DNA of 64,000 bases from Planctomycetes bacterium MalM25 (lineage in GTDB: Bacteria; Planctomycetota; Planctomycetia; Pirellulales; Lacipirellulaceae): assembly GCA_007745835.1 (NCBI GenBank), contig CP036424.1:2653968-2717967 (forward strand), written 5' to 3'. Below the pieces are notes generated by a model. That model searched no databases, had not been told where the DNA came from, and saw only the letters and a list, made by a program, of their open reading frames with translations. Positions 16,043-57,899 of this stretch are shown piece by piece. Both the position numbers and the translations under genes were made by a program. The stretch's first letter is position 1. The number at the start of each line of letters is the position of its first letter.

Positions 16043-16048
<6 letters not shown>
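16024..16048 (+). other. 5' half of the 23S pre-rRNA processing stem
   Basis: These 25 nt pair with 18841-18865 with only two mismatched positions, which are allowed as G-U pairs in RNA. The duplex brackets the mature 23S rRNA and is the expected RNase III substrate. Confidence 0.7.
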
Positions 16049-18848
<2,800 letters not shown>

Positions 18849-18981
18849 TAATCAAACGCTTCAAGCGTGCGAGCGAGTGACCATTCTCAATAGAATGTTC
18901 ACTCTGTTGCTCTTGCTCGAGCCTCGTCAAAGACAAGCACTGAACGTGCAGGCGGGTGTGACCTAGCGGTCACACCCGGCT

Positions 18982-19091
18982 TTCTGGCGACCATATCCGA
19001 AAGGAAATACCTGTTCCCATTCCGAACACAGTAGTCAAGCTTTCGGAGCCGATGATAGTGCCTACCAGCGTGAAAGTAGGTATCGCCAGTT
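18982..19091 (+). rRNA. rrf: 5S ribosomal RNA
   Basis: The terminal stem CTGGCGA/TCGCCAG, the CCGAACACAG loop and the GAAAGTAGG segment identify 5S rRNA of about 106-110 nt. It follows 23S by about 133 nt, with no tRNA in the spacer. A short hairpin (GGTGTGACC/GGTCACACC) precedes it. Confidence 0.95.
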
Positions 19092-45747: not shown

Positions 45748-47178
45748 TCAGGACTCCAAAGACCGCCATGCCGAGACCACCGAAGAGAGCAGCAGGCTGT
45801 CCTCTTCGGGATGAACGGCGTGCAAACCGAGGACCAACCGCCCCTGGCTGAGCCGACCTACGACCGGGGGCGATCCCGCGCGGAGTCGCTGCGCAAAGGC
45901 GTCCTCAGAACTCTCATCTGAGGGCTTCAGGGCGACCGACCAACTGGCCAAGGACCGATGGGGCAGGGCGCCGCCGCCTACGTAAGCCTCGTCGCAGATT
46001 GCTGTTACGTCCCACCCTGAAAGCGATCGTCTTAACTCACAGGCCAATCCCTCCGCTCGCCGACGCAGCTCCCCCAAGGGGGCGTTCAGCATTCTCAGCA
46101 GGGGCACACGCTGTTTTGCAGTTTCGGGGTCGGCGTAGAGAGCCAAGGTCGCCTGCAGCGCGGCCAGGGTCACCTTATCGACCCGCAGCGCGCGACAAAG
46201 CGGGTGGCGAAGCATCTTCTCGACGAGCCGACGCTTGCCGACGGCGATCCCGCACTGTGGCCCGCCCAAGAGCTTGTCGCCGCTAAAAAGCACGAGGTCG
46301 GCGCCGGCGAGGACGCTGCTGCCCACAACCGGTTCGCCTTCGCAGCCGAACGGTGCGAAATCGATCAAGGCGCCCGACCCGACGTCATGAACCAAGGGAA
46401 CGTCGTGAGCCGCCGCGACCTTGGCGAGGTCTTCCAACGCTGGCCGCTGGGTGAAACCGGAGACCTCGTAGTTGCTCGGGTGAACCACCAGCAGGGCGCC
46501 CGTCTTCTCGTCGATGGCGTTCTCGTAGTCAGCGACACGGGTTTTGTTCGTTGTGCCAACCGCCCGCAGCTCCGCCCCGTAGGCGGTGACCACTTCCGGC
46601 ATGCGGTAGCCGCCACCGATCTCGATCAACTCGCCGTGCGAGACGACCACCTCACGACCCGCGGCCAAAGCGGCGACGGCCAGCCCCGTGGCGCCGGCGT
46701 TGTTGTTCACCACGAGCGCCGCCTCGGCTCCGGTCAGGCCTCCGAGCATTTTCGCGACGGCGTGAGAACGCTGCGACCTTTCCCCGCTTTCCAGATCGAC
46801 CTCAACGTTGCAGTACCCCCGGCTGACGGCGGCGGCGGCTTCGATCGCCTCCTCCGCGAGGGGCGCTCGACCGAGGCCGGTGTGCAGCAAGATGCCGGTC
46901 GCGTTGATCACCGGGCGGAGCCGCGGTTTCGCTTCGGCGCCAAGCCTCGCCAGGCAACGCTCGGCGAGCTCGGCGTCGGGGGGCGTTGGCAGCTGACTCT
47001 CGCCGTCACGGATCTCCCGACGCGTCTCCTCAAGGACCGAGCGCACCGCCTCCGTGACCGGGCTGACTCCGCGCGCCCCGAGCGCGGCCTGCAGCGCGGG
47101 CTCTTTCAGCAGGGCATTGACGCTGGGCAACCCGCGTAGCGCGGCTTGGGTTGATGGGGGCAACGACTCGGACATCAT
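45748..47178 (-). CDS. selA: L-seryl-tRNA(Sec) selenium transferase SelA
   Basis: SelA converts Ser-tRNA(Sec) to selenocysteinyl-tRNA(Sec) using selenophosphate. The 476-residue PLP enzyme has VINATGILLHTGLGRAPL, NVEVDLESGERSQR, VNNNAGATGL and FSGDKLLGGPQCGI, where the Lys near residue 300 should form the PLP Schiff base. The length fits bacterial decameric SelA. The start ATG overlaps the selB stop by 4 nt (ATGA), so selB and selA form one operon. selD and selC are just beyond the divergent spacer. Its presence together with selB, selC and selD shows that the organism decodes UGA as selenocysteine. Confidence 0.96.
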   Translation of the reverse strand: MMSESLPPSTQAALRGLPSVNALLKEPALQAALGARGVSPVTEAVRSVLEETRREIRDGESQLPTPPDAELAERCLARLGAEAKPRLRPVINATGILLHTGLGRAPLAEEAIEAAAAVSRGYCNVEVDLESGERSQRSHAVAKMLGGLTGAEAALVVNNNAGATGLAVAALAAGREVVVSHGELIEIGGGYRMPEVVTAYGAELRAVGTTNKTRVADYENAIDEKTGALLVVHPSNYEVSGFTQRPALEDLAKVAAAHDVPLVHDVGSGALIDFAPFGCEGEPVVGSSVLAGADLVLFSGDKLLGGPQCGIAVGKRRLVEKMLRHPLCRALRVDKVTLAALQATLALYADPETAKQRVPLLRMLNAPLGELRRRAEGLACELRRSLSGWDVTAICDEAYVGGGALPHRSLASWSVALKPSDESSEDAFAQRLRAGSPPVVGRLSQGRLVLGLHAVHPEEDSLLLSSVVSAWRSLES

Positions 47179-49109
47179 GCGTCTTGGGGAGTAGGAGGGG
47201 ACACGATATCGCGAAGGTCTCCACGGCGACGCGTGAACCCGATTGCGTCGAGATGCTCGCAGAGCGGCACCGCGACCTTGCGGGGGATGCCCAGTGCCTC
47301 ACGGATCTCACTAACGGTCAGCGGCGCCTCAGCGGCCGCCAGTTCGAACAAAAGGACCTTCGCTGATTCGATCGCCTCACAGGCCACGTAAAGCCCTCCC
47401 TCTAGCTTAACCAGCCATCCTTGGTCCACGCCGAGTTCGAGCAGCGGCAGGAGGGAGTCGGGAGTTTGGCCGACTTCTTCGCCCAGCACCGTGGGGCTCG
47501 GGGGTCGCAGACCCCCAGCAAGAAGCAGCCTCTCGATCTCGCTGAGCGTCTGCTGCTGCTTGTCGGTTAGCTGAGGAGTCCACCCGTCCCGAGCGAGGCC
47601 CCTCGCGCCGGCGACGATCGCCCCGCTGCGGACCAAGCTTCTTAGCAGGGACATGAACAAGGAGGGATCGATCCCCTCAAACCGGGCCATCAGCCGGGAT
47701 CGCTCGACCCACAGCTTCAAGCTTGTTGATCGATGAGCGGCCAGCAGCTCGTTCAGGAAGCGTTCCGCCAACTCGGAGTAGATCGCCTCGTGCAGCCGCC
47801 ACGGTTCGTCTCCCTCGGCGGGAAGTTCCCTCAGCGTCTGGTTCTCTAGCAAGGCTCGGACCACCTCGCCGGAATCGGCCACGCCGGTTGTTGCGAAGAG
47901 CCGAGAAGACCGCAAACGTTCCGTCCCGCGCAAGAGATAGGCGCCAGCAACACGCCGGCTCGGCTCCTCGCTGGCGAGGTCTTCGATGGCGGCTCGCTGC
48001 TCGGTGGACAGTCGCTTCCTGCGCTTGGCCGACACCTCCAGAACACGCCCTCCTCCCAGGGTCACCACGGGGGACACACCACGCAGCACATAGGGTTGGC
48101 CCCAAGCCACGGCGATCTCGTCCTGCAAAACAATCTGGGCGTACGCCGGCTCGTCCGGGGGCAACGTTCGCTGGCCGAGCAACTTGATCCGCCCAAGGTG
48201 TTCCGCGGTCCCGAGGTGGATCCTCACCATGGCGTCGTGCTTCAACGGCTTGAGGACGCTGGAGTTCAGCCGAACTTCCACCGTGATCAAGCGGCTCCGC
48301 TCGTAGGCGCCCGGGGCGCACAAGGACTGACCGCGGGCGATCTGGTCGTAGGCTACCCCAGCGAGGTTGATGGCCGCCCGTTGGCCGCTCCGCAGCTGCT
48401 CAGCGGGGGAGTCGTGGTTCTGCAGATCACGCACCCGCACCGACACGCCCTGGGGCAGCAACTCGAGCTCGTCGCCGATCGCCACTCGCCCGCTCGCGAT
48501 GCTGCCCGTGACAACCGTCCCTTGGCCCGTGGCGGTGAACGCCCGATCGATCGCCATGCGGAACGGCTGGCCGGTCCGTTGCGCCGCCTGCCCTTCGGCG
48601 GCGTCGGCCGCACGGTCGAGCGCCTCACGCAGGTCCCCCAAACCTTGGCCGCCGCGGGTGCTGACCCGCACCACCTCGGCCCTCTGGAGGAAGGTGCCCG
48701 CGGTGAGCTCGGCGACTTCCGCCTCGACCAAGTCGATCCAATCGGGCTCGGCGAGGTCACACTTGGTGAGAGCGACCACACCGGAAGCCAGCCTCATGTG
48801 CTGCAGGATCTGTAGGTGCTCGCGCGTCTGCGGCTTCACCGAGTCATCCACCGCGACCACGAGCAAAGCGAGATCGATCCCGGTTGCGCCGGCGAGCATG
48901 TTCTTCACGAAACGCTCGTGCCCCGGCACGTCGATCACGCCGAGCGTGTGCCGGTCGAGCTCGAGCGGAGCGAAGCCGAGGTCGATGGTGATCCCGCGTC
49001 GTTTCTCCCCGGGCAGGCGGTCGGTGTCGCACCCGGTGAGTGCCTTGACGAGCGCCGTCTTGCCGTGGTCGATATGACCCGCCGTGCCGAGCAAGAGGGG
49101 AGGCTTCAT
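47175..49109 (-). CDS. selB: selenocysteine-specific elongation factor SelB
   Basis: SelB delivers Sec-tRNA(Sec) to ribosomes stalled at a UGA followed by a SECIS hairpin. The 644-residue protein has an EF-Tu-like GTPase domain: G1 GHIDHGKTALVKALTG, switch GEKRRGITIDLGF, G3 DVPGHE and G4 TKCD. Beta-barrel domains II/III follow, with LTVExRLNSSVLKPLKHDAMVRIH-like strands. The C-terminal half contains repeated winged-helix modules (SLKLWVERSRLMARFEG ... TPQLTDKQQQTLSEIERLL ... PLTVSEIREALGIPRKVAVPLCEHLDAIGFTRRRGDLRDI), the part that binds SECIS RNA. ATG 49109 is chosen because the GTPase core starts there. Upstream codons belong to the spacer. Confidence 0.96.
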   Translation of the reverse strand: MKPPLLLGTAGHIDHGKTALVKALTGCDTDRLPGEKRRGITIDLGFAPLELDRHTLGVIDVPGHERFVKNMLAGATGIDLALLVVAVDDSVKPQTREHLQILQHMRLASGVVALTKCDLAEPDWIDLVEAEVAELTAGTFLQRAEVVRVSTRGGQGLGDLREALDRAADAAEGQAAQRTGQPFRMAIDRAFTATGQGTVVTGSIASGRVAIGDELELLPQGVSVRVRDLQNHDSPAEQLRSGQRAAINLAGVAYDQIARGQSLCAPGAYERSRLITVEVRLNSSVLKPLKHDAMVRIHLGTAEHLGRIKLLGQRTLPPDEPAYAQIVLQDEIAVAWGQPYVLRGVSPVVTLGGGRVLEVSAKRRKRLSTEQRAAIEDLASEEPSRRVAGAYLLRGTERLRSSRLFATTGVADSGEVVRALLENQTLRELPAEGDEPWRLHEAIYSELAERFLNELLAAHRSTSLKLWVERSRLMARFEGIDPSLFMSLLRSLVRSGAIVAGARGLARDGWTPQLTDKQQQTLSEIERLLLAGGLRPPSPTVLGEEVGQTPDSLLPLLELGVDQGWLVKLEGGLYVACEAIESAKVLLFELAAAEAPLTVSEIREALGIPRKVAVPLCEHLDAIGFTRRRGDLRDIVSPPTPQDA

Positions 49110-49240
49110 TTGGGAGGCGTGCGAGACACACGGGGGTTCGGAGGATCGGGGGCGACAGGCGACGAGTGGCCGCCGGCTTCCGCACGCCCTGTGCTTGCAT
49201 GATACTGTAGAGAACAATCGCAGCGTGAGCCGGTAGGCCG

Positions 49241-51442
49241 ATGCAGGAACAACTCCCCAAGCACGATCTTGTGCTCCTCGGCGCAGGCCACACCAATGCG
49301 CATCTTATTCGCATGTGGCGGATGAATCCGCTACCCGGGATTCGCTTGACGTGCGTCTCGAATCACGGGACGGCGGCCTACTCGGGCATGTTGCCGGGGG
49401 TCTTGGCCGGGGACCACCAGCCAGACGAGTCTCAGATTGACTTGGTGCGGCTCAGCGCCGCGACGGGGGTGCGATTCCTCCGAGCGGAAGTGAGCGGTCT
49501 CAACCTCCCCGAACGCCGGCTGCTCTTCGAGGACCGCCCCCCGCTCAGCTACGACTACTTGTCGGTCGGCATCGGCTCGCTCCCCACGCGTCCCCCGGGC
49601 TGCGACGCCCTGGGCCTCTCGATCAAGCCGATGCAAACGTTCCTCGAACGCTTGAACCGGCGGCTCGATGCGCTAGCCGAAACCGTGGGCGGCCCAATAC
49701 GCCTGGTGGTTGCGGGCGGAGGGGCTGGGGGCGTTGAGATCGCGTGCTGCCTGAAACAGCATCTCACCGGTAGGTCACCTGGATCTCGTTTCGAGCTATC
49801 GTTGGTCGAGGCGGGCGACGACCTCCTCTCTGGCATGCCCTTGGCGACACGCCGCTTGGCTCGCCGGGCGCTCGAGAAGCATGGGATCGAGATCGTGGTG
49901 GGTCGGCGTATCGTGGCGACCGACGCCGCGGGGAGGCTCCGCTTCGAGTCGGGCGAAGAGCGCGAAGCCGATCTGATCCTGTGGGCCACTTCGGCATCCG
50001 CCCCCCCCCTGCTGGGACGGCTCGGCTTGGACGTCGATGAAAGAGGGTTTATCCGCACGCACAACACCCTTCAGACCGTGACGTCCGACCGTGTCTATGC
50101 GGTCGGTGATGCGGGGAGTCCCGTCAACGGACCGACCACCAAGGCGGGCGTCTACGCGGTGAGGCAGGGGCCCGTGCTGTGGCGGAACCTTCGCAATCAG
50201 CTCCAGGGGCGGCCGCTCGAAACCTGGCGACCACAGCCTTCGTTCCTGAGCCTGCTCAACACGGGAGACGGACGGGCGATCCTGACCTACAAGGGCCTCA
50301 GCACCCACGCCCGATGGTGCCGCCGATTGAAAGCCAGGATCGATCGCCGGTTCATGCTCAAGCACCAGGACTACACCCCCGCCTCAATGGCCGCGCCACC
50401 CTCTCCTAGCAAGGAAGAGGCCATGCATTGTGGCGGCTGCGGTTGCAAGCTGCCCGGCGACATCCTTTCAAGGGTGCTCAAGCGACTCGAAGTCCCGCTA
50501 TCGCCCCGAGTCGTTGTCGGCTTAGAACCGCCAGACGATGTCGCCATGCTGCGACCGACTGCTGGGAAACTGCTGGGGGTCTCCACTGATTTCTTTTCAT
50601 CGTTCCTAGACGATCCTTACGCCCTGGGTCGGATCGCGGCGCTCAACGCTCTGAGCGATCTCTACGCCAAGCGGGTCCAGCCAACAGCCGCTTTGGCGAT
50701 CGCCACGGTGCCGTACGGGGGGGCCCCACAGCAAGAAGAGCACCTGACCCAACTGCTCGCCGGCGGGCTCCGCGAGCTCCGGGAGGCTGGCGCCGACCTC
50801 GTTGGTGGTCACACCACCGAGGGCCCGCAGACCACAGTCGGCTTCACGCTCTTGGGAGACGTCGAAGAAGCGGCCACCAAGCAGATGGCTCAGCTAAAAC
50901 CGGGCGACTTGTTGATGCTGACCAAGGCCATCGGGACCGGGGCCCTGCTCGCCGGCGACCGCCTAGCGCGATGCCAGCACGATTGGATGGAAGCTCTCCT
51001 GCGAAGCATGCTGACAAGCAACCGGCAGGCGAGCGAGACCGCGAGCCGACTGGGGGCCTCCGCAATGACCGACGTGACCGGCTTCGGGCTTGCGGGTCAC
51101 TTGCTAGAACTCCTGCGACAATCAGGCGTCGGCGCCGAGCTCTCTCTCGACCGGCTCGTCTTGCTGCCGGGCGCCGAGCACCTCATCAGCCAAGGGGTCG
51201 AGAGCACCTTGGCGCCAGGCAACCGGTCGGTTGAAGGCTCGATCGATCGAGCCGCCGCGCTGCAAGGGGATCCACGCTACCGATCGCTCTTCGACCCGCA
51301 GACCTCGGGGGGGCTGCTCGCCGGCGTCCCCGAGGCCAACCTCCCCGTCGGCCCGGACGGGCCTGAGGAGACCGACGGCTGGGTTCGGATCGGACGCGTC
51401 GTTGATCGCGCGGACGGCAAGTCGGTCATCCGAGTGCGCTGA
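49241..51442 (+). CDS. selD: SelD fused to an N-terminal FAD/NAD(P)-dependent oxidoreductase
   Basis: The 733-residue fusion begins with an NDH-2/pyridine-nucleotide-disulfide oxidoreductase-like domain (about 1-380): LVLLGAGHTNAHL is the FAD-binding Rossmann motif, LVVAGGGAGGVEIAC the NAD(P) motif and VYAVGDAGSPVNGPTTKAGVYA the C-terminal FAD motif. The second part (about 395-733) is selenide, water dikinase: MHCGGCGCKLPGDIL carries the catalytic Cys/Lys segment, ending near 733 after LFDPQTSGGLLAGV. SelD makes selenophosphate for SelA. The residue at the catalytic position is Cys, not Sec. Such fusions are known; the oxidoreductase may reduce or supply selenium. It is divergent from selB. 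Confidence 0.95.
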   Translation: MQEQLPKHDLVLLGAGHTNAHLIRMWRMNPLPGIRLTCVSNHGTAAYSGMLPGVLAGDHQPDESQIDLVRLSAATGVRFLRAEVSGLNLPERRLLFEDRPPLSYDYLSVGIGSLPTRPPGCDALGLSIKPMQTFLERLNRRLDALAETVGGPIRLVVAGGGAGGVEIACCLKQHLTGRSPGSRFELSLVEAGDDLLSGMPLATRRLARRALEKHGIEIVVGRRIVATDAAGRLRFESGEEREADLILWATSASAPPLLGRLGLDVDERGFIRTHNTLQTVTSDRVYAVGDAGSPVNGPTTKAGVYAVRQGPVLWRNLRNQLQGRPLETWRPQPSFLSLLNTGDGRAILTYKGLSTHARWCRRLKARIDRRFMLKHQDYTPASMAAPPSPSKEEAMHCGGCGCKLPGDILSRVLKRLEVPLSPRVVVGLEPPDDVAMLRPTAGKLLGVSTDFFSSFLDDPYALGRIAALNALSDLYAKRVQPTAALAIATVPYGGAPQQEEHLTQLLAGGLRELREAGADLVGGHTTEGPQTTVGFTLLGDVEEAATKQMAQLKPGDLLMLTKAIGTGALLAGDRLARCQHDWMEALLRSMLTSNRQASETASRLGASAMTDVTGFGLAGHLLELLRQSGVGAELSLDRLVLLPGAEHLISQGVESTLAPGNRSVEGSIDRAAALQGDPRYRSLFDPQTSGGLLAGVPEANLPVGPDGPEETDGWVRIGRVVDRADGKSVIRVR

Positions 51443-51515: not shown

Positions 51516-51613
51516 GGAAGTGTTTGTCACCTGGTGGCGGCCTCGGTCTTCAAAACCGATGTGCGGTGCGGCGACGCTCCGCAGGTGGGTTCGATTCCCA
51601 TACACTTCCGCCA
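51516..51613 (+). tRNA. selC: tRNA-Sec (UCA)
   Basis: Acceptor stem GGAAGTG/CACTTCC is extended into the T-stem, as usual for tRNA-Sec. A long variable arm (GCGGTGCGGCGACGCTCCGC) and the anticodon loop CTTCAAA place TCA at 51550-51552. Discriminator G is followed by encoded CCA. Length of about 98 nt including CCA is typical. It lies directly downstream of selD. Confidence 0.96.
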
Positions 51614-51741
51614 CGCCGCGTCGTCTTCGGCCCCGAAACTGAAGCGATCTTTTCAACCGTCTGAGGCGAGGCACGCGGACACGCATGGCGCCGGAACGCC
51701 ATGGGAACGGAAGAGCCAACCCCCTGAATGAGCCACTCCCG

Positions 51742-53475
51742 ATGAGCCAATCCTTCACCGCCGCGATCGATCGAACCCGTTCACTCCCCGCCGCCGTGTC
51801 GGCCACCCTCTTGGCCCTGCTCGCAGCCGCGGCGCCGTCGATAGCGCAGACACTCCCCGCAGCGAACCCGATCTCGGCGGTGCTTCCTTCGACTTCCTTC
51901 TCCCTGCAGCTTGAGGAAGTGATCCGCATCCCGGACAGCTCTTCGGGCAACAACCGTTTCGCCCGGATCGAGCAGATCTCACCGGCGATCGACGGCAGCG
52001 GCGAGATCTTCGTCTCGGACCAACGCGGCAAGGTCTACACGTTCACGCCGGGCGACACCAACCCGTCGGAGTTTTTCAACTTCGCGGCGGTCATCCCGAG
52101 CTTCAAGAACAACAACAACCAATCCGGCCTGCGAGGGTTCGCCTTCCACCCCAACGCGTTTGGCGACTCGAACGCCCCCGGGTACCGGAAGATGTACACC
52201 GCCCACGAGATCGACACCAACGCGAACGAAAGCCACCTGTCGGTCGTCAGCGAGTGGAGCCTCAACGGGTCCGGCGTGCCGATCGTGAGCAGCCGCCGCG
52301 ACGTGCTGACGCAATCGCAACCGCGCGGCGACCACAACATCGGCAAGGTCGGCTTCAACCCGAACCTCTCGCCGGGCGACGCGGACTACGGCAACCTGTA
52401 CATCTCGTTCGGCGACGGCGGCAACTACCGCACCGACGCCGGCGACACGACGCTCAACCCGAACGGACAGAACACCACGAACTTTTTGGGCTCGATGCTC
52501 CGCATCAACCCGTTGCAGGACGGAGGCAGTCCCTACTCGGTCCCCGCCGACAACCCGTTCGTGAATCAGGGCGGGATCGACAATGAGATCTGGGCCTACG
52601 GACTCCGCAACCCGCACCAGTTCAGCTGGGACACCGGCGGCAACGGCGACCTGCTGATCGCCGACATCGGCCAGAGCAACATCGAAGAGGTCAATCTCGG
52701 CGTCGCCGGCGCCAACTACGGGTGGTCGACCCGCGAGGGGACGTTCGACATGACCGGCAAACTGCCCGGCAACCCGATCCAGGCCGACGTGCTGCCCGGC
52801 AACCACCCGAACGACGCGTTCACCTACCCCGTGGCTCAGTACGACCACGACTTCAACAACGCCGGCCAGGACAACGCCGCGATCGCGGGCGGTTTCGTTT
52901 ATCGGGGTTCGCTGGTCCCCGAGCTGAAGGGGAAGTACATCTTCGGCAACTTCGGCTCCTCGACCCAGTTCCAGGACATCTACGTCGTCGATGTCGATCA
53001 GCTCCAGCTGCAAGACGACTTCACGAACCTCGACCGCACCTCGACGGACGCCTTCCTGGCGCCGATGGAGATACTGAGCCTCGTCGACGATCAGGACAAC
53101 CCGGTCCAGCTGCTCGACTTGGTCCGCGACGCCAGCGGCATCGGCAACCAAAGCCGCACCGACATGCGTTTCGGTATCGGCAGCGACGGGGAGATCTACA
53201 TCAGCAGCAAGAAGGACGGCTGGATCCGGCGTTTCACTTCGACGCTCAAGCCGGGTGACTACAACCGCGATGGCGTTGTCGATGCCGCGGACTACACCGT
53301 TTGGCGTGACGGCGACAGCCCGGACAACTCGCAAGCCGGCTACGAGCTGTGGCGGGACAACTACGGCGCGGCGAACGCCGCCGCGAACTCGGCCGCGATC
53401 CCCGAACCGGGCTCCGCCCTGCTGCTTGGCTTCGCCACACTGCTCCTCGCGATGCGGCGAAGCAACGCCACTTGA
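51742..53475 (+). CDS. secreted glucose/sorbosone dehydrogenase-like beta-propeller with dockerin-like repeat and PEP-CTERM tail
   Basis: The 577-residue exported protein has a signal peptide (LPAAVSATLLALLAAAAPSIAQ). A PQQ-dependent sugar dehydrogenase-like propeller follows: RIEQISPAIDGSGEIFVSDQRGKVY, GLRGFAFHPNAF, YGNLYISFGDGGNYRTD, EIWAYGLRNPHQFSWD, GDLLIADIGQSNIEEVNLGVAGANYGW and GGFVYRGSLVPELKGKYIFGNFG. The C terminus has a dockerin-like segment (GDYNRDGVVDAADYTVWRDG) and the PEP-CTERM tail IPEPGSALLLGFATLLLAMRR. Catalytic His and PQQ-binding residues cannot be confirmed by eye. ATG 51742 is used. It lies between selC and the selenoprotein gene, but shows no Sec signature. Confidence 0.9.
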   Translation: MSQSFTAAIDRTRSLPAAVSATLLALLAAAAPSIAQTLPAANPISAVLPSTSFSLQLEEVIRIPDSSSGNNRFARIEQISPAIDGSGEIFVSDQRGKVYTFTPGDTNPSEFFNFAAVIPSFKNNNNQSGLRGFAFHPNAFGDSNAPGYRKMYTAHEIDTNANESHLSVVSEWSLNGSGVPIVSSRRDVLTQSQPRGDHNIGKVGFNPNLSPGDADYGNLYISFGDGGNYRTDAGDTTLNPNGQNTTNFLGSMLRINPLQDGGSPYSVPADNPFVNQGGIDNEIWAYGLRNPHQFSWDTGGNGDLLIADIGQSNIEEVNLGVAGANYGWSTREGTFDMTGKLPGNPIQADVLPGNHPNDAFTYPVAQYDHDFNNAGQDNAAIAGGFVYRGSLVPELKGKYIFGNFGSSTQFQDIYVVDVDQLQLQDDFTNLDRTSTDAFLAPMEILSLVDDQDNPVQLLDLVRDASGIGNQSRTDMRFGIGSDGEIYISSKKDGWIRRFTSTLKPGDYNRDGVVDAADYTVWRDGDSPDNSQAGYELWRDNYGAANAAANSAAIPEPGSALLLGFATLLLAMRRSNAT

Positions 53476-53639
53476 ATTGAGCCAAGATGGCGAAGCGTGG
53501 GGCGGTCCGCTACGATGCGAACCGTCCTAAAACCAAGGCAAGGCGCCGAGATTTGAACCCGACGACCAGCCCGCCGCGGACCGCCAATCCACACAGGCGC
53601 TCTGGTGCGCCGAACTGGACTTGGATCGGTCGGGTTTGG

Positions 53640-56600
53640 ATGGATCGGGCATGGGCGGGCATGGCTCTCGCGGTCTGCTTGATGCTGCCCGGGTGCCAGC
53701 GTTCCACCAACGCCGCGCCCGACGCCAAACCCGCTACGACGAAAGCAACCGAGCCGTCCGGCCCGGCCGTCTCAGAAGGCTCCTCGACCAAGCCCCCCGC
53801 CCCCCAGGTGGAGACGCAGGTCGAGACGGCCCGTGTCCCCACCTCCGGCCAGACGCGTGAGACCGTCGAGAAGCTCGCCGAGTTGCTCGACCCCAACAGC
53901 ACCGGCTGGCAAACCGAGGCCTTCAACGAAGCCGCCGGCAAGCGGCTCAAGAAGCTCGCCGCCTCCATGCTGAAACCGGATGGGGCGGCGCGGTCCGATT
54001 TGAAGAAGCTCATCGCCGAGGGCTTCGTTTGCGGCGCGTTCAATCCCCAAGAGGACGCCGAGTCCGTCAAGCTCGCGGGCATCGGTGTCAGGCGAACGGG
54101 CGCCGCTATCGGGACGCCGCTCGAAGGGCTCGACGGCTTGCTCAAAGCGATCCAAACGCTGCCCACCCCCACGGCGGACTTCCACGTGAAGTTCAAGATC
54201 GTCGGCGTTCAGCCGGGCGACGGAATCGTGGTCACCCCCGCGTACGTCGAGGGGGGCGGCGTCTCCCGCCAGGGGCGCGTTCAGTGGAAGGCCGATTGGA
54301 GATGCACCTGGACCACCGGCAAGGACGCCACCCCGTTGCTGTCTTCCATCGAGGTGAAAAACTACGAGCAGGTCATCACCCCCGAGCGCTCGGCGCCCTG
54401 GTTCGTCGATGAGACGGCAGCCGTCCTCGGCGACGAGCCCAGTTACCGCGAGCAGATGCTCCAGAGCATGGACTACTGGGCGGGGCGTATCGAAGGCCGC
54501 CTCGGCATCAACCGCCTCGGGCATCACGGGCTCGCGGTGGGCGACGTCAACAACGACGGCCGCGAAGACCTGTACGTCTGCCAGGCCGGCGGCCTCCCCA
54601 ATCGCCTCTACGTGACCCAGCCCGACGGAACCGCCCGCGACATCGCCGCCTCCGCGGGCGTCGATTATCTGGACGACTCGACGTGCGCCCTGCTGGTCGA
54701 TCTGGACAACGACGGCGATCAGGACCTGGTGGTCGTATCGGTCTCCGCGGCGGTGGTGCTGTCGAATGATGGACGGGCCAAGTTCACCGCCCAGGCCATT
54801 ATCCCCGAGTGCCGCAACGCCTTCTCCCTGACCTCGGCGGACTACGACGGGGACCGCCTGCCCGACCTCTATGTCGGCAGGTACTGGCCGAGCGACAAGA
54901 CCCGCGGCGAGATCGCGATCCCGGTCCCCTACTACGACGCCGAGAACGGTGGTCGCAACATGCTGCTCCGCAACACGGGGGAGTGGCGGTTCGAGGACAC
55001 GACCGACGCGGCGGGTCTCGACGAGAGCAACACCCGCTTCACCATGGCGGCGGCCTGGGACGACATCGACCAGGACGGCGATTCCGACCTGTACGTCGCG
55101 AACGACTTCGGCCGCAACTGCCTCTACCGCAACGACGGGGGGCGGTTCGTCAACACGGCCGTCGAAGCGGGTGTCGAGGACATCGCCTCGGGGATGTCGG
55201 TGTCGTTCTCCGACTTCGACCACAACGGGCACGATGACATCTACATCAGCAACATGTTTTCGTCGGCCGGCAACCGGATCACCTACCAAGGCCGGTACAG
55301 CGAGCGTTTCGGAGCGAACTCCCTCGCCAAAATCCAGCGGATGGCCCGCGGCAACACGCTGTTCAAGAACCGTGGCGACGGCGCCTTTGAGGACGTGAGC
55401 GTCTCCGCGGACGTGACCATGGGCCGCTGGGCCTGGGGCTCGCTCTTCGCCGACTTCAACAACGACAGTTGGGACGATCTGGTGGTGATGAACGGCTTCA
55501 TCACCACCGAAGACTCCGGCGATTTGTGAAGTTTCTATTGGCGGCAGGTCGTGTCGCAATCACCTCAAGAGGCGTCGCAGGTTGATGCCCAGCATCCCTA
55601 CGCCGAGGCGACCAACCAGCTGAACCAGCTGGTCCGCCAGGGCCGCGCCTTCAGCGGCCACGAGCGCAACTGTTGCTACCTCAACACGGGCGACGGCCGC
55701 TTCGCCAACGCGTCCGCCGTCAGCGGGTTCGACTTCCCGGAGGACGGCCGCTGCGTCGTGCGGACCGACTGGGACTTCGACGGCGACCTCGACTTCTGGG
55801 TCTCGAACCGGACGGGTCCGAGGCTCCGGTTCCTACGCAACAAGAACCCCCCTGGGAAGAGCTTCGTCGCCTTCCGGTTGGTCGGCACGGATTCGAACCG
55901 CGACGCCATCGGCGCCACGGTCACGCTTCAGCTGGGCTCCGGGGCGGAGAGCCCCCCCCTGACCAAGTCGGTTCGGCGTGGGGAGGGCTTCCTCGGACAG
56001 AGCAGCAGCTGGATCCACTTCGGTCTCGGCGAACAACCAGCGATTGGCAAGCTGCGGGTGCTCTGGCCGACCGGCGAGGTGGAAACGTTCGAGCCGCCAC
56101 AGCCAGGCGGCTACTACCAGCTGGTGGAAGGGAGCGGCGAAGCAACCCCCTGGTCGCCACCTCACACCGAAGCCATAACGATCGCCGAAGCCCCCTCTCG
56201 GCCGAAGGAGGTCGGGTTGACTCAACACCTTCTGAGTCAGTCGATGCCGCTGCCACCGCTGCGGTACGAGACCTTTACGGGCGAGAGCGGCGACGCCACG
56301 CAAGCGGCCGGCGGGCCGGTCTTGCTGAACCTTTGGGCGAGCTGGTGCCGGCCCTGCCTCGTCGAGATGAAGGAGTGGTCGAAGCAGGCCGACGAGTTCG
56401 ACTCTTTGGGCTTGCGCGTGATCGCTCTCTCGGTGAACGGCCTTGGGGACCCCAAGCAGCGTGACGAGGCCGCGCCGCGCGAGCTCCTGGAGCGTCTCGG
56501 CTTCAAGCACCCCGCCGGGATGGCCTCACCACAGACGGTCGAGCTGCTACAGCTTGTCAACAACCTCATCTACCTGCACGACCACCGACCGCTGCCCGTG

Positions 56601-57899
56601 CCAACCAGCTTCCTCCTCGACGGAGAGGGAAGGCTCGCCGCCGTGTACAAGGGCCCGGTCTCACTCGAACGCCTGTCGCGTGATGTCGAGGCGATCGGCC
56701 TCGGCAGCGAACAACGGATGGGACGCTCGCTTCCGTTTGCCGGCAGGTGGATCGGCGGGCAAGGCCCGCATCGCCTCAGGAAACTGGCGGCCACGATGTG
56801 GGACGCCGGATACGGCGCCGAGGCGGTTGCGTTGGCGGACCGCCTCGAGGACCCGGGCTACCAAAAACTCCGAGGCCAACTGCACCTGGACAACGCGTCG
56901 CACCTGAAGGAAGACGAGCAACGCCTGCCGGAGGCGCTCGCCCAGCTCCGGGCGGCCATCCGCCTGGACCCTCAGAACGCCGACGCCCTCATGGAGCTGG
57001 GGGTAGCGGCCGCTCAGCAGGGAGACGTGCCCCAAGCGATCGAGTTACTCGAAAGATCGGTTCGGCACGCCGACCCGCCCAGCGCGGCGGCCCACTTCAA
57101 TCTCGGCAAAGCGCTCCGCCTGGCGGGCCGCCCCGCCGAGGCGAAGCGTCAGCTAGAACTCTCCCTCGAAGCCGATCCGAAGCAGTCGCCGGCTCACGAG
57201 ACACTCGGGCACCTGGCCGTCGGCGAGCGAGACTTCAAGTCGGCCGCCACGTCTTTCGCCGCCGCGTGGAAGCTGGACTCGACAAACAAGAACCACCTGA
57301 CCAACCTCGTCGCCGCGTTGATGCAGACGGGAGAGGCAACCAAGGCAACAGAGGCCTTAGAAGCGGCCCTCCGACGCGAACCGCGCGACGCCGCCCTGAG
57401 AGCGTTTCTGGCCCAGGTGCTGTTGCAACAAGGCCGGATCGATGACGCGGTCGACCAACTGGAGCAAGTCGCCGAGCAGCAACCCCAAGCGCCCAAGGTC
57501 TGGTACCAACTCGGCCAGCTGGCCCAGCAACGCGGGGAGTGGGGGCAAGCGATCCAGCACCTCGGGCAAGTCGCCAAGCTCGTCCCCGATGACCCGGCAA
57601 TCGCTACCGACTTGGCGTGGGTGCTGGCGACGGCCCCCGATGAGTCGCTGCGCGACGGCGCGCGAGCGGTGAGGCTCGCCGAGAAGGCCGCCACCGCCAC
57701 CAAGGGGCGCGACTGGCGTGTGCTCGATGTCCTGGCGGCAGCCTACGCCGAGCGAGGCGACTTCGAGCGGGCCGTCCAAGCCGAGTCCAAAGCAATCGAT
57801 CGGCTCCCACCCGGCGACACGCAGCGGCGTGGCCTCCTCAGGGCGAGGCAGGAACGGTACCGCCAGGGCCAGCCCTTCCACCAAACCGCGGTGCGATGA
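53640..57899 (+). CDS. predicted selenoprotein: FG-GAP/VCBS, ASPIC/UnbV, thioredoxin-like and TPR lipoprotein (Sec at residue 630)
   Basis: I read this as one gene of 1,420 codons with TGA at 55527-55529 decoded as selenocysteine. The start ATG 53640 gives a lipoprotein signal (MDRAWAGMALAVCLMLPGC, lipobox LPGC). After a low-complexity linker and an unknown domain (to about 290), VCBS/FG-GAP repeats run from about 296 to 720, e.g. VGDVNNDGREDLYV and ANDFGRNCLYRNDGG. The TGA falls inside the propeller: ...FITTEDSGDL, Sec, SFYWRQVVSQSP..., and the next blade (RTDWDFDGDLDFWV) lies beyond it. ASPIC/UnbV follows at about 740-830, then a TlpA-like redoxin with CRPC (Cys 903/906), then about nine TPR repeats to the C terminus. 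Without readthrough the first product ends mid-domain and the second would start mid-domain with no signal peptide. A SECIS-like hairpin follows the TGA directly. selB, selA, selD and selC lie 2-8 kb upstream. Confidence 0.88.
55527..55560 (+). promoter_or_regulatory. bacterial SECIS element
   Basis: UGA at 55527-55529 is followed by a stem-loop. GCGGCA (55541-55546) pairs with UGUCGC (55552-55557) around the loop GGUCG (55547-55551), extended by AUU/AAU (55537-55539 with 55558-55560) past one bulged G. The UGA-to-loop distance is 17 nt, against 18 in E. coli fdhF, whose apical part is also GCA-GGUC-UGC. Loop GGU is what SelB recognises in fdhF. This supports UGA decoding as Sec. Confidence 0.85.

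Follow-up and report, generated by a model that had tools for sequence, protein, structure and literature searches.

A candidate planctomycete selenoprotein family with an in-frame UGA in a propeller protein that also carries a redoxin domain

Introduction

Does a TGA in the middle of a long planctomycete reading frame separate two genes, or does it encode selenocysteine (Sec) within one large protein? The question is raised by a stretch of 64,000 nucleotides from Planctomycetes bacterium MalM25 (contig CP036424.1, positions 2,653,968 to 2,717,967 of the forward strand), here referred to as the window and numbered from its first base. An initial annotation, made from the sequence alone, had proposed a selenoprotein here on the grounds that two long frames share one phase with a single TGA (55527-55529) between them, an arrangement borne out by our open reading frame analysis. 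The second frame had been described as starting at 55551; its phase was correct, but that position is merely the first GTG after the TGA. With the in-frame TGA counted as a residue, the frame is open from the ATG at 53640 to the TGA at 57897-57899. The evidence presented below makes insertion of Sec at residue 630 almost certain in our judgment, and we consider it likely that the locus as a whole is best explained as one large selenoprotein, a Sec-decoded propeller with a redox relay between Sec and a CxxC motif. The features of the gene are as follows.

53640-57899, forward strand: candidate selenoprotein gene, whole; 1,419 residues with Sec630 (frame, Pfam, homologues)
53694-53696, forward strand: Cys19 of a lipobox-like LPGC (by eye)
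55527-55529, forward strand: in-frame UGA, Sec630, within DL[U]SFYWRQVVSQSP, opening a predicted helix (alignment, model)
55541-55557, forward strand: predicted selenocysteine insertion sequence (SECIS) hairpin, 6-bp stem with loop GGUCG at 55547-55551 (folding, conservation, covariation)
55905-56111, forward strand: UnbV_ASPIC domain, residues 756-824 (Pfam)
56280-56639, forward strand: redoxin domain of TlpA/ResA type, AhpC-TSA, residues 881-1000 (Pfam, structure matches)
56346-56357, forward strand: redoxin active site C903-R-P-C906, in WASWCRPC (sequence, alignment)
56913-57824, forward strand: TPR repeats, between residues 1092 and 1395 (Pfam)

Results and Discussion

Domain architecture of the joined product

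Pfam searches of the joined product recovered the domains that had been proposed for it (FG-GAP, UnbV_ASPIC, a CRPC redoxin and TPRs). From N- to C-terminus, the protein comprises a lipoprotein-like signal, an N-terminal region, an FG-GAP/CRTAC1-type propeller, UnbV_ASPIC, a TlpA/ResA-like redoxin and TPRs. FG-GAP_3 (125.3 bits) and UnbV_ASPIC (52.8 bits) scored above their curated cut-offs, as did AhpC-TSA (34.1 bits, cut-off 26), while the Redoxin model, at 25.1 bits, stayed under its cut-off of 26.6. An alternative in-frame ATG lies upstream at 53487; the start at 53640 was kept because of its lipobox-like N-terminus, MDRAWAGMALAVCLMLPGC (by eye), in which Cys19 suggests a lipid-anchored envelope protein.

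Conservation of the UGA and of the downstream frame

Homologues were retrieved with the Sec-containing protein as query, a selection to be borne in mind for all counts given here. In the same order, 25 of 196 genomes had a match at E 1e-60 or better, and exactly one TGA was present in 46 of the 49 order-level matches listed (window included), two of the 46 also containing a TAG. Phylum-wide, 116 of 392 genomes had a match at 1e-30 or better among the matches listed. We read 77 other TGA-listed loci (28 order-level, 29 phylum-level and 20 more remote). Homologues had been predicted to align across residue 630 with Cys or Sec at that site, and in 76 of the 77 loci the UGA itself aligned there, mostly in the context D-[LTG]-U-S-x-x-W-R; the TGAs of the exception, L100, fall at other places. 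Recurrence on this scale goes well beyond chance.

The two halves were in phase in all 76 UGA loci, and homologues arranged as two separate genes, which the initial annotation had named as evidence against a selenoprotein, were not what we found. A stop at the UGA followed by a restart at GTG 55551 could draw on the position of that GTG, 22 bases past the TGA and preceded by a GGCAGG stretch. The in-phase halves argue against such a two-gene arrangement, as do the lack of a signal peptide in the second half (by eye), the replacement of the GTG codon by Ala, Leu or Thr codons in 14 of 77 UGA genes and its location inside a predicted conserved helix, and we regard it as highly improbable. The chance of a sequencing error or pseudogene is smaller still and practically negligible: nothing was found in its favour, 76 loci from other genomes have their UGA in this column, and the downstream frame is conserved. 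Compared with the nearest relative (L021), amino-acid identity was 0.51 in the redoxin and 0.57 in the stretch immediately following Sec, and in the post-TGA frame codon positions 1 and 2 stood at 0.56-0.76 and position 3 at 0.36; synonymous distance to this relative is saturated in part, no dN/dS is claimed, and the frame after the TGA looks constrained.

Homologues with a sense codon at the site were compiled as 22 non-UGA rows, 20 picked from the phylum listing and two being neighbours of Sec genes; L044 and L100 were excluded as they have no comparable site. In 20 non-UGA matches the residue at the Sec site was Glu (6), Ala (4), Gln (3), Arg (3) or, once each, Asp, Ser, His and Asn. Cys occurred in 2 of the 22 rows, in a sister group only: in L039 and L040 a sister gene beside the Sec gene carries it, in AKDYCTRYWCHD or AKDYCTRFWCHD. 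Trp was found at the site in none of the 22 (0/22). The sister genes (post-site parts at L039:4645-5292 and L040:534-1130) encode short proteins with a second Cys at W-C and no redoxin. The contig scan gave one distant relative, L050, with Val at the aligned site, and distant relatives of <30% identity were present on eight plasmid records.

A covarying hairpin directly after the UGA

The sequence following the UGA folds into a hairpin of 17 nucleotides (nt) and 6 bp (-8.7 kcal/mol), in which nt 15-20 pair with nt 26-31 when the T of the TGA is counted as 1. UGA genes show a strong preference for the codons CGR CAG GTC GTG TCG after the UGA (CGA/CGG in 61, GTC in 59 and TCG in 58 of 77 genes), a preference absent from the non-UGA homologues, where CGC was found in 16 of 22. 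The 5-bp core stem was complete in 71 of 77 UGA genes versus 0 of 22 non-UGA homologues. When codons were replaced synonymously using the same genes' codons, every one of 100 trials weakened the mean folding of the UGA genes (z -14.4); for the non-UGA homologues, z was -1.4.

Base pairs were counted on 71 of 77 rows; the omitted rows (L043, L081, L084, L091, L097 and L099) all break the stem except L081, which forms it. Pairing was found in 98.6% of cells versus 91.3% after shuffling. Changes on both sides were seen in four of six pairs, a number as high in 1 of 500 shuffles, and the covariation score was 0.289 versus 0.133 shuffled (reached in 0 of 500), falling to 0.095 or less when the stem was slid. 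One stem pair joins codon 636 to codon 638 through their second bases, and residue pairs at these codons are therefore forced by the stem: among 71 rows with Trp-Arg, Gln or His was accompanied by Val, Leu or Met in 59 and Arg by Ala or Thr in nine, with Arg and Val in one, Gln or His with Ala or Thr in none and other pairs in two. Non-UGA homologues had Arg with Val or Ile in 7 of 7.

The SECIS pattern was found at 67 sites in 46 of 392 genomes, and the reversed pattern at two. Several genomes had at least 3 copies of the gene in the order-level listing, and up to four copies were counted by this pattern. The locus L132 (G080:C105:26000-43000) contains two adjacent copies with the same split frame, along with one or more further FG-GAP/UnbV proteins. 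An AG directly follows the UGA (55530) in 69 of 77 UGA genes; since 18 of 22 non-UGA homologues have it as well, it may reflect no more than the Ser codon.

Selenocysteine machinery accompanies the gene

The initial annotation had placed selA, selB, selC and selD 2-8 kb from the gene. All were found upstream within the window, SelD in the form of a fusion recognised by its Pfam AIRS domains.

45748-47178, reverse strand: selA (Pfam)
47175-49217, reverse strand: selB, with SelB winged-helix domain (Pfam)
49241-51442, forward strand: pyridine-nucleotide oxidoreductase fused to an AIRS pair, putative SelD of the Ndh-SelD type (Pfam)
51516-51609, forward strand: selC, tRNA-Sec (Rfam, 76.5 bits; ARAGORN gives 51516-51613)

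To score selC across genomes, we applied our own threshold of at least 62 bits to Rfam tRNA-Sec matches (Infernal with stricter filters), which lies in a gap from 54.8 to 62.2 bits. Matches of 47-55 bits were rejected as other tRNAs, some match being present in all 196 genomes and in 14 of 14 controls. A clear selC was found in 56 of the 196 order genomes, namely in 20 of 24 with a UGA homologue versus 36 of 172 others (p 3e-9, with no correction for relatedness). Three of the four UGA-homologue genomes without a clear selC have selB over the cut-off, so that selC or selB occurs in 23 of the 24. In the genus mates G058, G081 and G091, the gene was absent at 1e-60 and no selB scored over the cut-off. 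Elsewhere in the phylum, selC was present in 15 of 15 further genomes chosen among those with a UGA match. It was also present in five genomes chosen for their non-UGA copies, and loss of Sec in these copies is thus not a matter of lost machinery.

Three lines of evidence support Sec decoding at residue 630, as initially annotated: the covarying SECIS hairpin, the Sec machinery encoded by the same genomes and the lack of Trp at the site in all 22 non-UGA homologues read. Some termination at the UGA is expected in any selenoprotein gene, and this expectation would agree with a stop that is leaky or regulated and yields two products, one short and one long; decoding as another amino acid is a related possibility. 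Either form of read-through is opposed by the conserved stem, its covariation and the codon constraint, which UGA genes show and non-UGA homologues do not, as well as by the lack of Trp in the latter, the gene's own terminal TGA and the accompanying Sec machinery; we consider both forms very unlikely. For the reasons given for each, split genes, pseudogene or error, and UGA as Trp were rejected.

Other observations weigh against Sec decoding and temper the evidence given above. The core stem is not formed in register by six of 77 UGA genes (L043, L084, L091, L097, L098 and L099), although by eye several of them might pair in a different register. Codon replacement brought some loss of folding in the flanks of UGA genes too, with z -2.1 on the upstream side (1 of 100) and z -2.9 on the downstream side (0 of 100). 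Taken by itself, the window hairpin does not stand out from its shuffled versions (z -0.23 and -1.49), and folding energy of a single sequence was rejected as evidence, being non-significant. The generic bacterial SECIS (bSECIS) model, with a loop of 3-9 nt, a stem of 4-16 bp, G in the first two loop bases, a spacing of 16-37 nt and a minimum free energy of at most -7.5 (as outlined in PMC13188914), fits the window hairpin and 75 of 77 UGA genes, yet it is also passed by 471 of 1,000 background TGAs of the window and by 15 of 22 non-UGA homologues. This model does not discriminate in the GC-rich DNA studied here and was rejected as evidence; weight was therefore placed on stem conservation and covariation. 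One genome, G057 (70% complete), carries the gene with neither selC nor selB found. Finally, the non-UGA homologues mostly lack Cys at the site, which is unusual for a selenoprotein; Cys counterparts of Sec are common among such families but not required.

Position of Sec in the predicted structure

Residues 66-1050 were modelled with AlphaFold2 on a 67-row alignment, giving a predicted local distance difference test (pLDDT) of 92.6 and a predicted template modelling score (pTM) of 0.94. Ten rows (L043, L061, L081, L087, L090, L094, L095, L097, L098 and L099) were left out, because of which the 'invariant' CxxC of this alignment is partly a result of selection. Sec had been placed in a propeller loop. 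The model, a high-confidence prediction of the fold, agrees with the propeller region but not with a simple loop, as a predicted helix (565-575) begins with Sec (model residue 565). From the secondary structure, Sec would sit on a helical insertion, one of two helices between propeller-region strands.

Co-occurrence of Sec and the redoxin CxxC

The redoxin CxxC sits about 270 residues downstream of Sec. Of the 76 Sec rows in which it could be scored, 70 contain it, versus 1 of 22 non-Sec rows (76 and not 77, since L081 is incomplete at the 3' side of the fetched locus). Among the six Sec rows without CxxC, five lack a redoxin, ending 195-216 residues past Sec, and all six carry a Cys at -1 to +5 of Sec (USC, URC, UNC, CU and, twice, U-x-x-x-W-C); in none of the 70 CxxC rows was there a Cys from -5 to +6. 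A family redoxin profile matched 15 of the 22 non-UGA rows (E between 5e-10 and 3e-41, with the 22 rows as search set), the other seven being without the domain, and 14 of these 15 lack CxxC (e.g., WAGWDDPS, WATWDAPS). In a tree of 97 rows (L081 and L087 left out), the Sec state needs at least 6 changes, and CxxC follows Sec in 4-5 of six independent pairs and does the opposite in none; the motif search used for the tree scored the CxxC of L098 as missing, though it is present. Joint loss of Sec and the redoxin CxxC would also explain the near-absence of Cys partners at the Sec site.

On the basis of these patterns, functional coupling of Sec and CxxC appears likely, and a direct relay between them within one molecule would be our preferred form of it, with moderate confidence. 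Alternatively, Sec could be inserted and serve as a metal ligand or binding residue, with the redoxin acting on other proteins and linked to Sec only statistically. In favour of this reading, the propeller has many columns of invariant Asp, Asn and Gly, as cation-binding FG-GAP motifs are expected to have. A metal-ligand role is at odds with the missing CxxC in 14 of 15 redoxin-keeping non-UGA homologues and with the Cys near Sec in all six Sec forms without CxxC, and we consider it rather unlikely.

Several points count against the proposed relay. L094 has Sec and a redoxin-like tail (by eye) without CxxC, and L111 retains CxxC without Sec. L101, the only non-UGA protein tried, has no redoxin by Pfam, although the family profile does match. 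Few independent events underlie the association of Sec with CxxC, which does not reach formal significance (sign test 0.06-0.125). In addition, among ten neighbouring genes drawn from nine of 12 fetched loci, two was the highest count of any family (DUF1559 twice, PEP-CTERM twice, COX1, DUF4185, 3keto-disac_hyd, one further FG-GAP/UnbV protein, a spermine-synthase-like match below cut-off and one without a match), and gene neighbourhood was rejected as a guide to function.

Proposed mechanism and evolution

In the Sec-CxxC relay that we propose, SelB with tRNA-Sec would recognise the hairpin that immediately follows the UGA, inserting Sec630 into a product that, from its lipobox-like start, is probably a periplasmic or surface lipoprotein. 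The selenolate at the helix start could be the reacting group toward an oxidised substrate such as a disulfide or peroxide, and the redoxin CxxC of the same protein could re-reduce the oxidised Sec. In short members without redoxin, the Cys near Sec may take the role of CxxC, and on loss of Sec the CxxC would decay too. Taken more broadly, we lean towards an old, large family, multicopy in some genomes, in which a propeller selenol and a fused or adjacent thiol form one envelope redox machine that evolves as a unit, with Sec and CxxC lost together and not by Sec-to-Cys exchange, and with the SECIS dictating part of the protein sequence.

Other features of the window

A Glucose/sorbosone dehydrogenase-like protein with a PEP-CTERM-like tail (by eye) is encoded at 51685-53475, in the interval from selC to the Sec gene and in their orientation. 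Formate dehydrogenase was considered as a further selenoprotein of this genome and rejected, as its three molybdopterin-domain matches contain no internal TGA. A 23S and 5S rRNA pair occupies 16045-19091, and no 16S rRNA was reported in the window.

Implications

The family would place Sec in a propeller protein, outside thioredoxin-like motifs and known metal enzymes, and add a widespread group to the selenoproteins. Searching for Cys/Sec pairs is described as one of two main strategies of selenoprotein discovery (PMC13188914), and such pairing is also a filter of deep-Sep (PMC12013277). Because few Cys partners exist, this family could be missed by searches of that kind, and ordinary annotation would probably split its genes in two. 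It also offers a clean case of an RNA structure forcing amino acids to covary: the covariation of codons 636 and 638 (Gln/Val versus Arg/Ala or Arg/Thr) arises from an RNA stem, a warning for methods based on protein coevolution. A Sec-CxxC relay is made directly testable by the family.

Comparison with known systems

We conclude that this is very probably a new, widespread bacterial selenoprotein family, and apparently an undescribed one. The initial annotation knew of no selenoprotein with this architecture, and Table 1 of a 2026 inventory of 119 prokaryotic selenoprotein families names no FG-GAP, UnbV, CRTAC1 or propeller entry (PMC13188914), its hypothetical-protein entries having been set apart by name and not by sequence. 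Models of those hypothetical entries were absent among the best 25 of 36 NCBIfam matches, of which a single one, a TPR end domain of 56 residues, scored high enough for its cut-off. Full-text literature searches returned nothing pairing selenocysteine with FG-GAP and, for CRTAC1, only work on peroxiredoxin 6. No such protein is mentioned in the section on selenoproteins of the Porphyra planctomycete paper (PMC4807772), the supplementary table S9 of that paper lying outside the comparison, and CRTAC, propeller, VCBS, redoxin and planctomyc were not found in the passages compared from deep-Sep (PMC12013277).

The closest known structure is murine CRTAC1 (PDB 9etn; profile E 3.9e-39; fold E 5.8e-26, TM-score 0.71 by target length), with which the FG-GAP propeller and the UnbV domain are shared. 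The profile alignment leaves positions 359-644 unaligned, including Sec (profile 565), and the Sec, redoxin, TPRs and lipobox of the window protein fall outside the match. With the thiol-disulfide oxidoreductases TlpA and ResA (1jfu, 1st9, 4txo), the protein shares a redoxin with WASWCxPC by profile and fold, but here the redoxin is a fused module tied to Sec in another domain. The hairpin resembles the SECIS of Escherichia coli fdhF, where a GGUC loop lies at nt 22-25 from the UGA compared with nt 21-24 here, although the protein and the stem sequence are different. Bacterial selenoproteins with Sec in thioredoxin-like folds, such as the UGC-containing TlpA and the UxxC redoxin family (PMC13188914, Table 1), are alike in having a UGA with a 3' SECIS, the SelB route and likely redox chemistry; in those proteins Sec lies inside the thioredoxin-like motif, whereas here the CxxC is kept and Sec is found in the propeller region.

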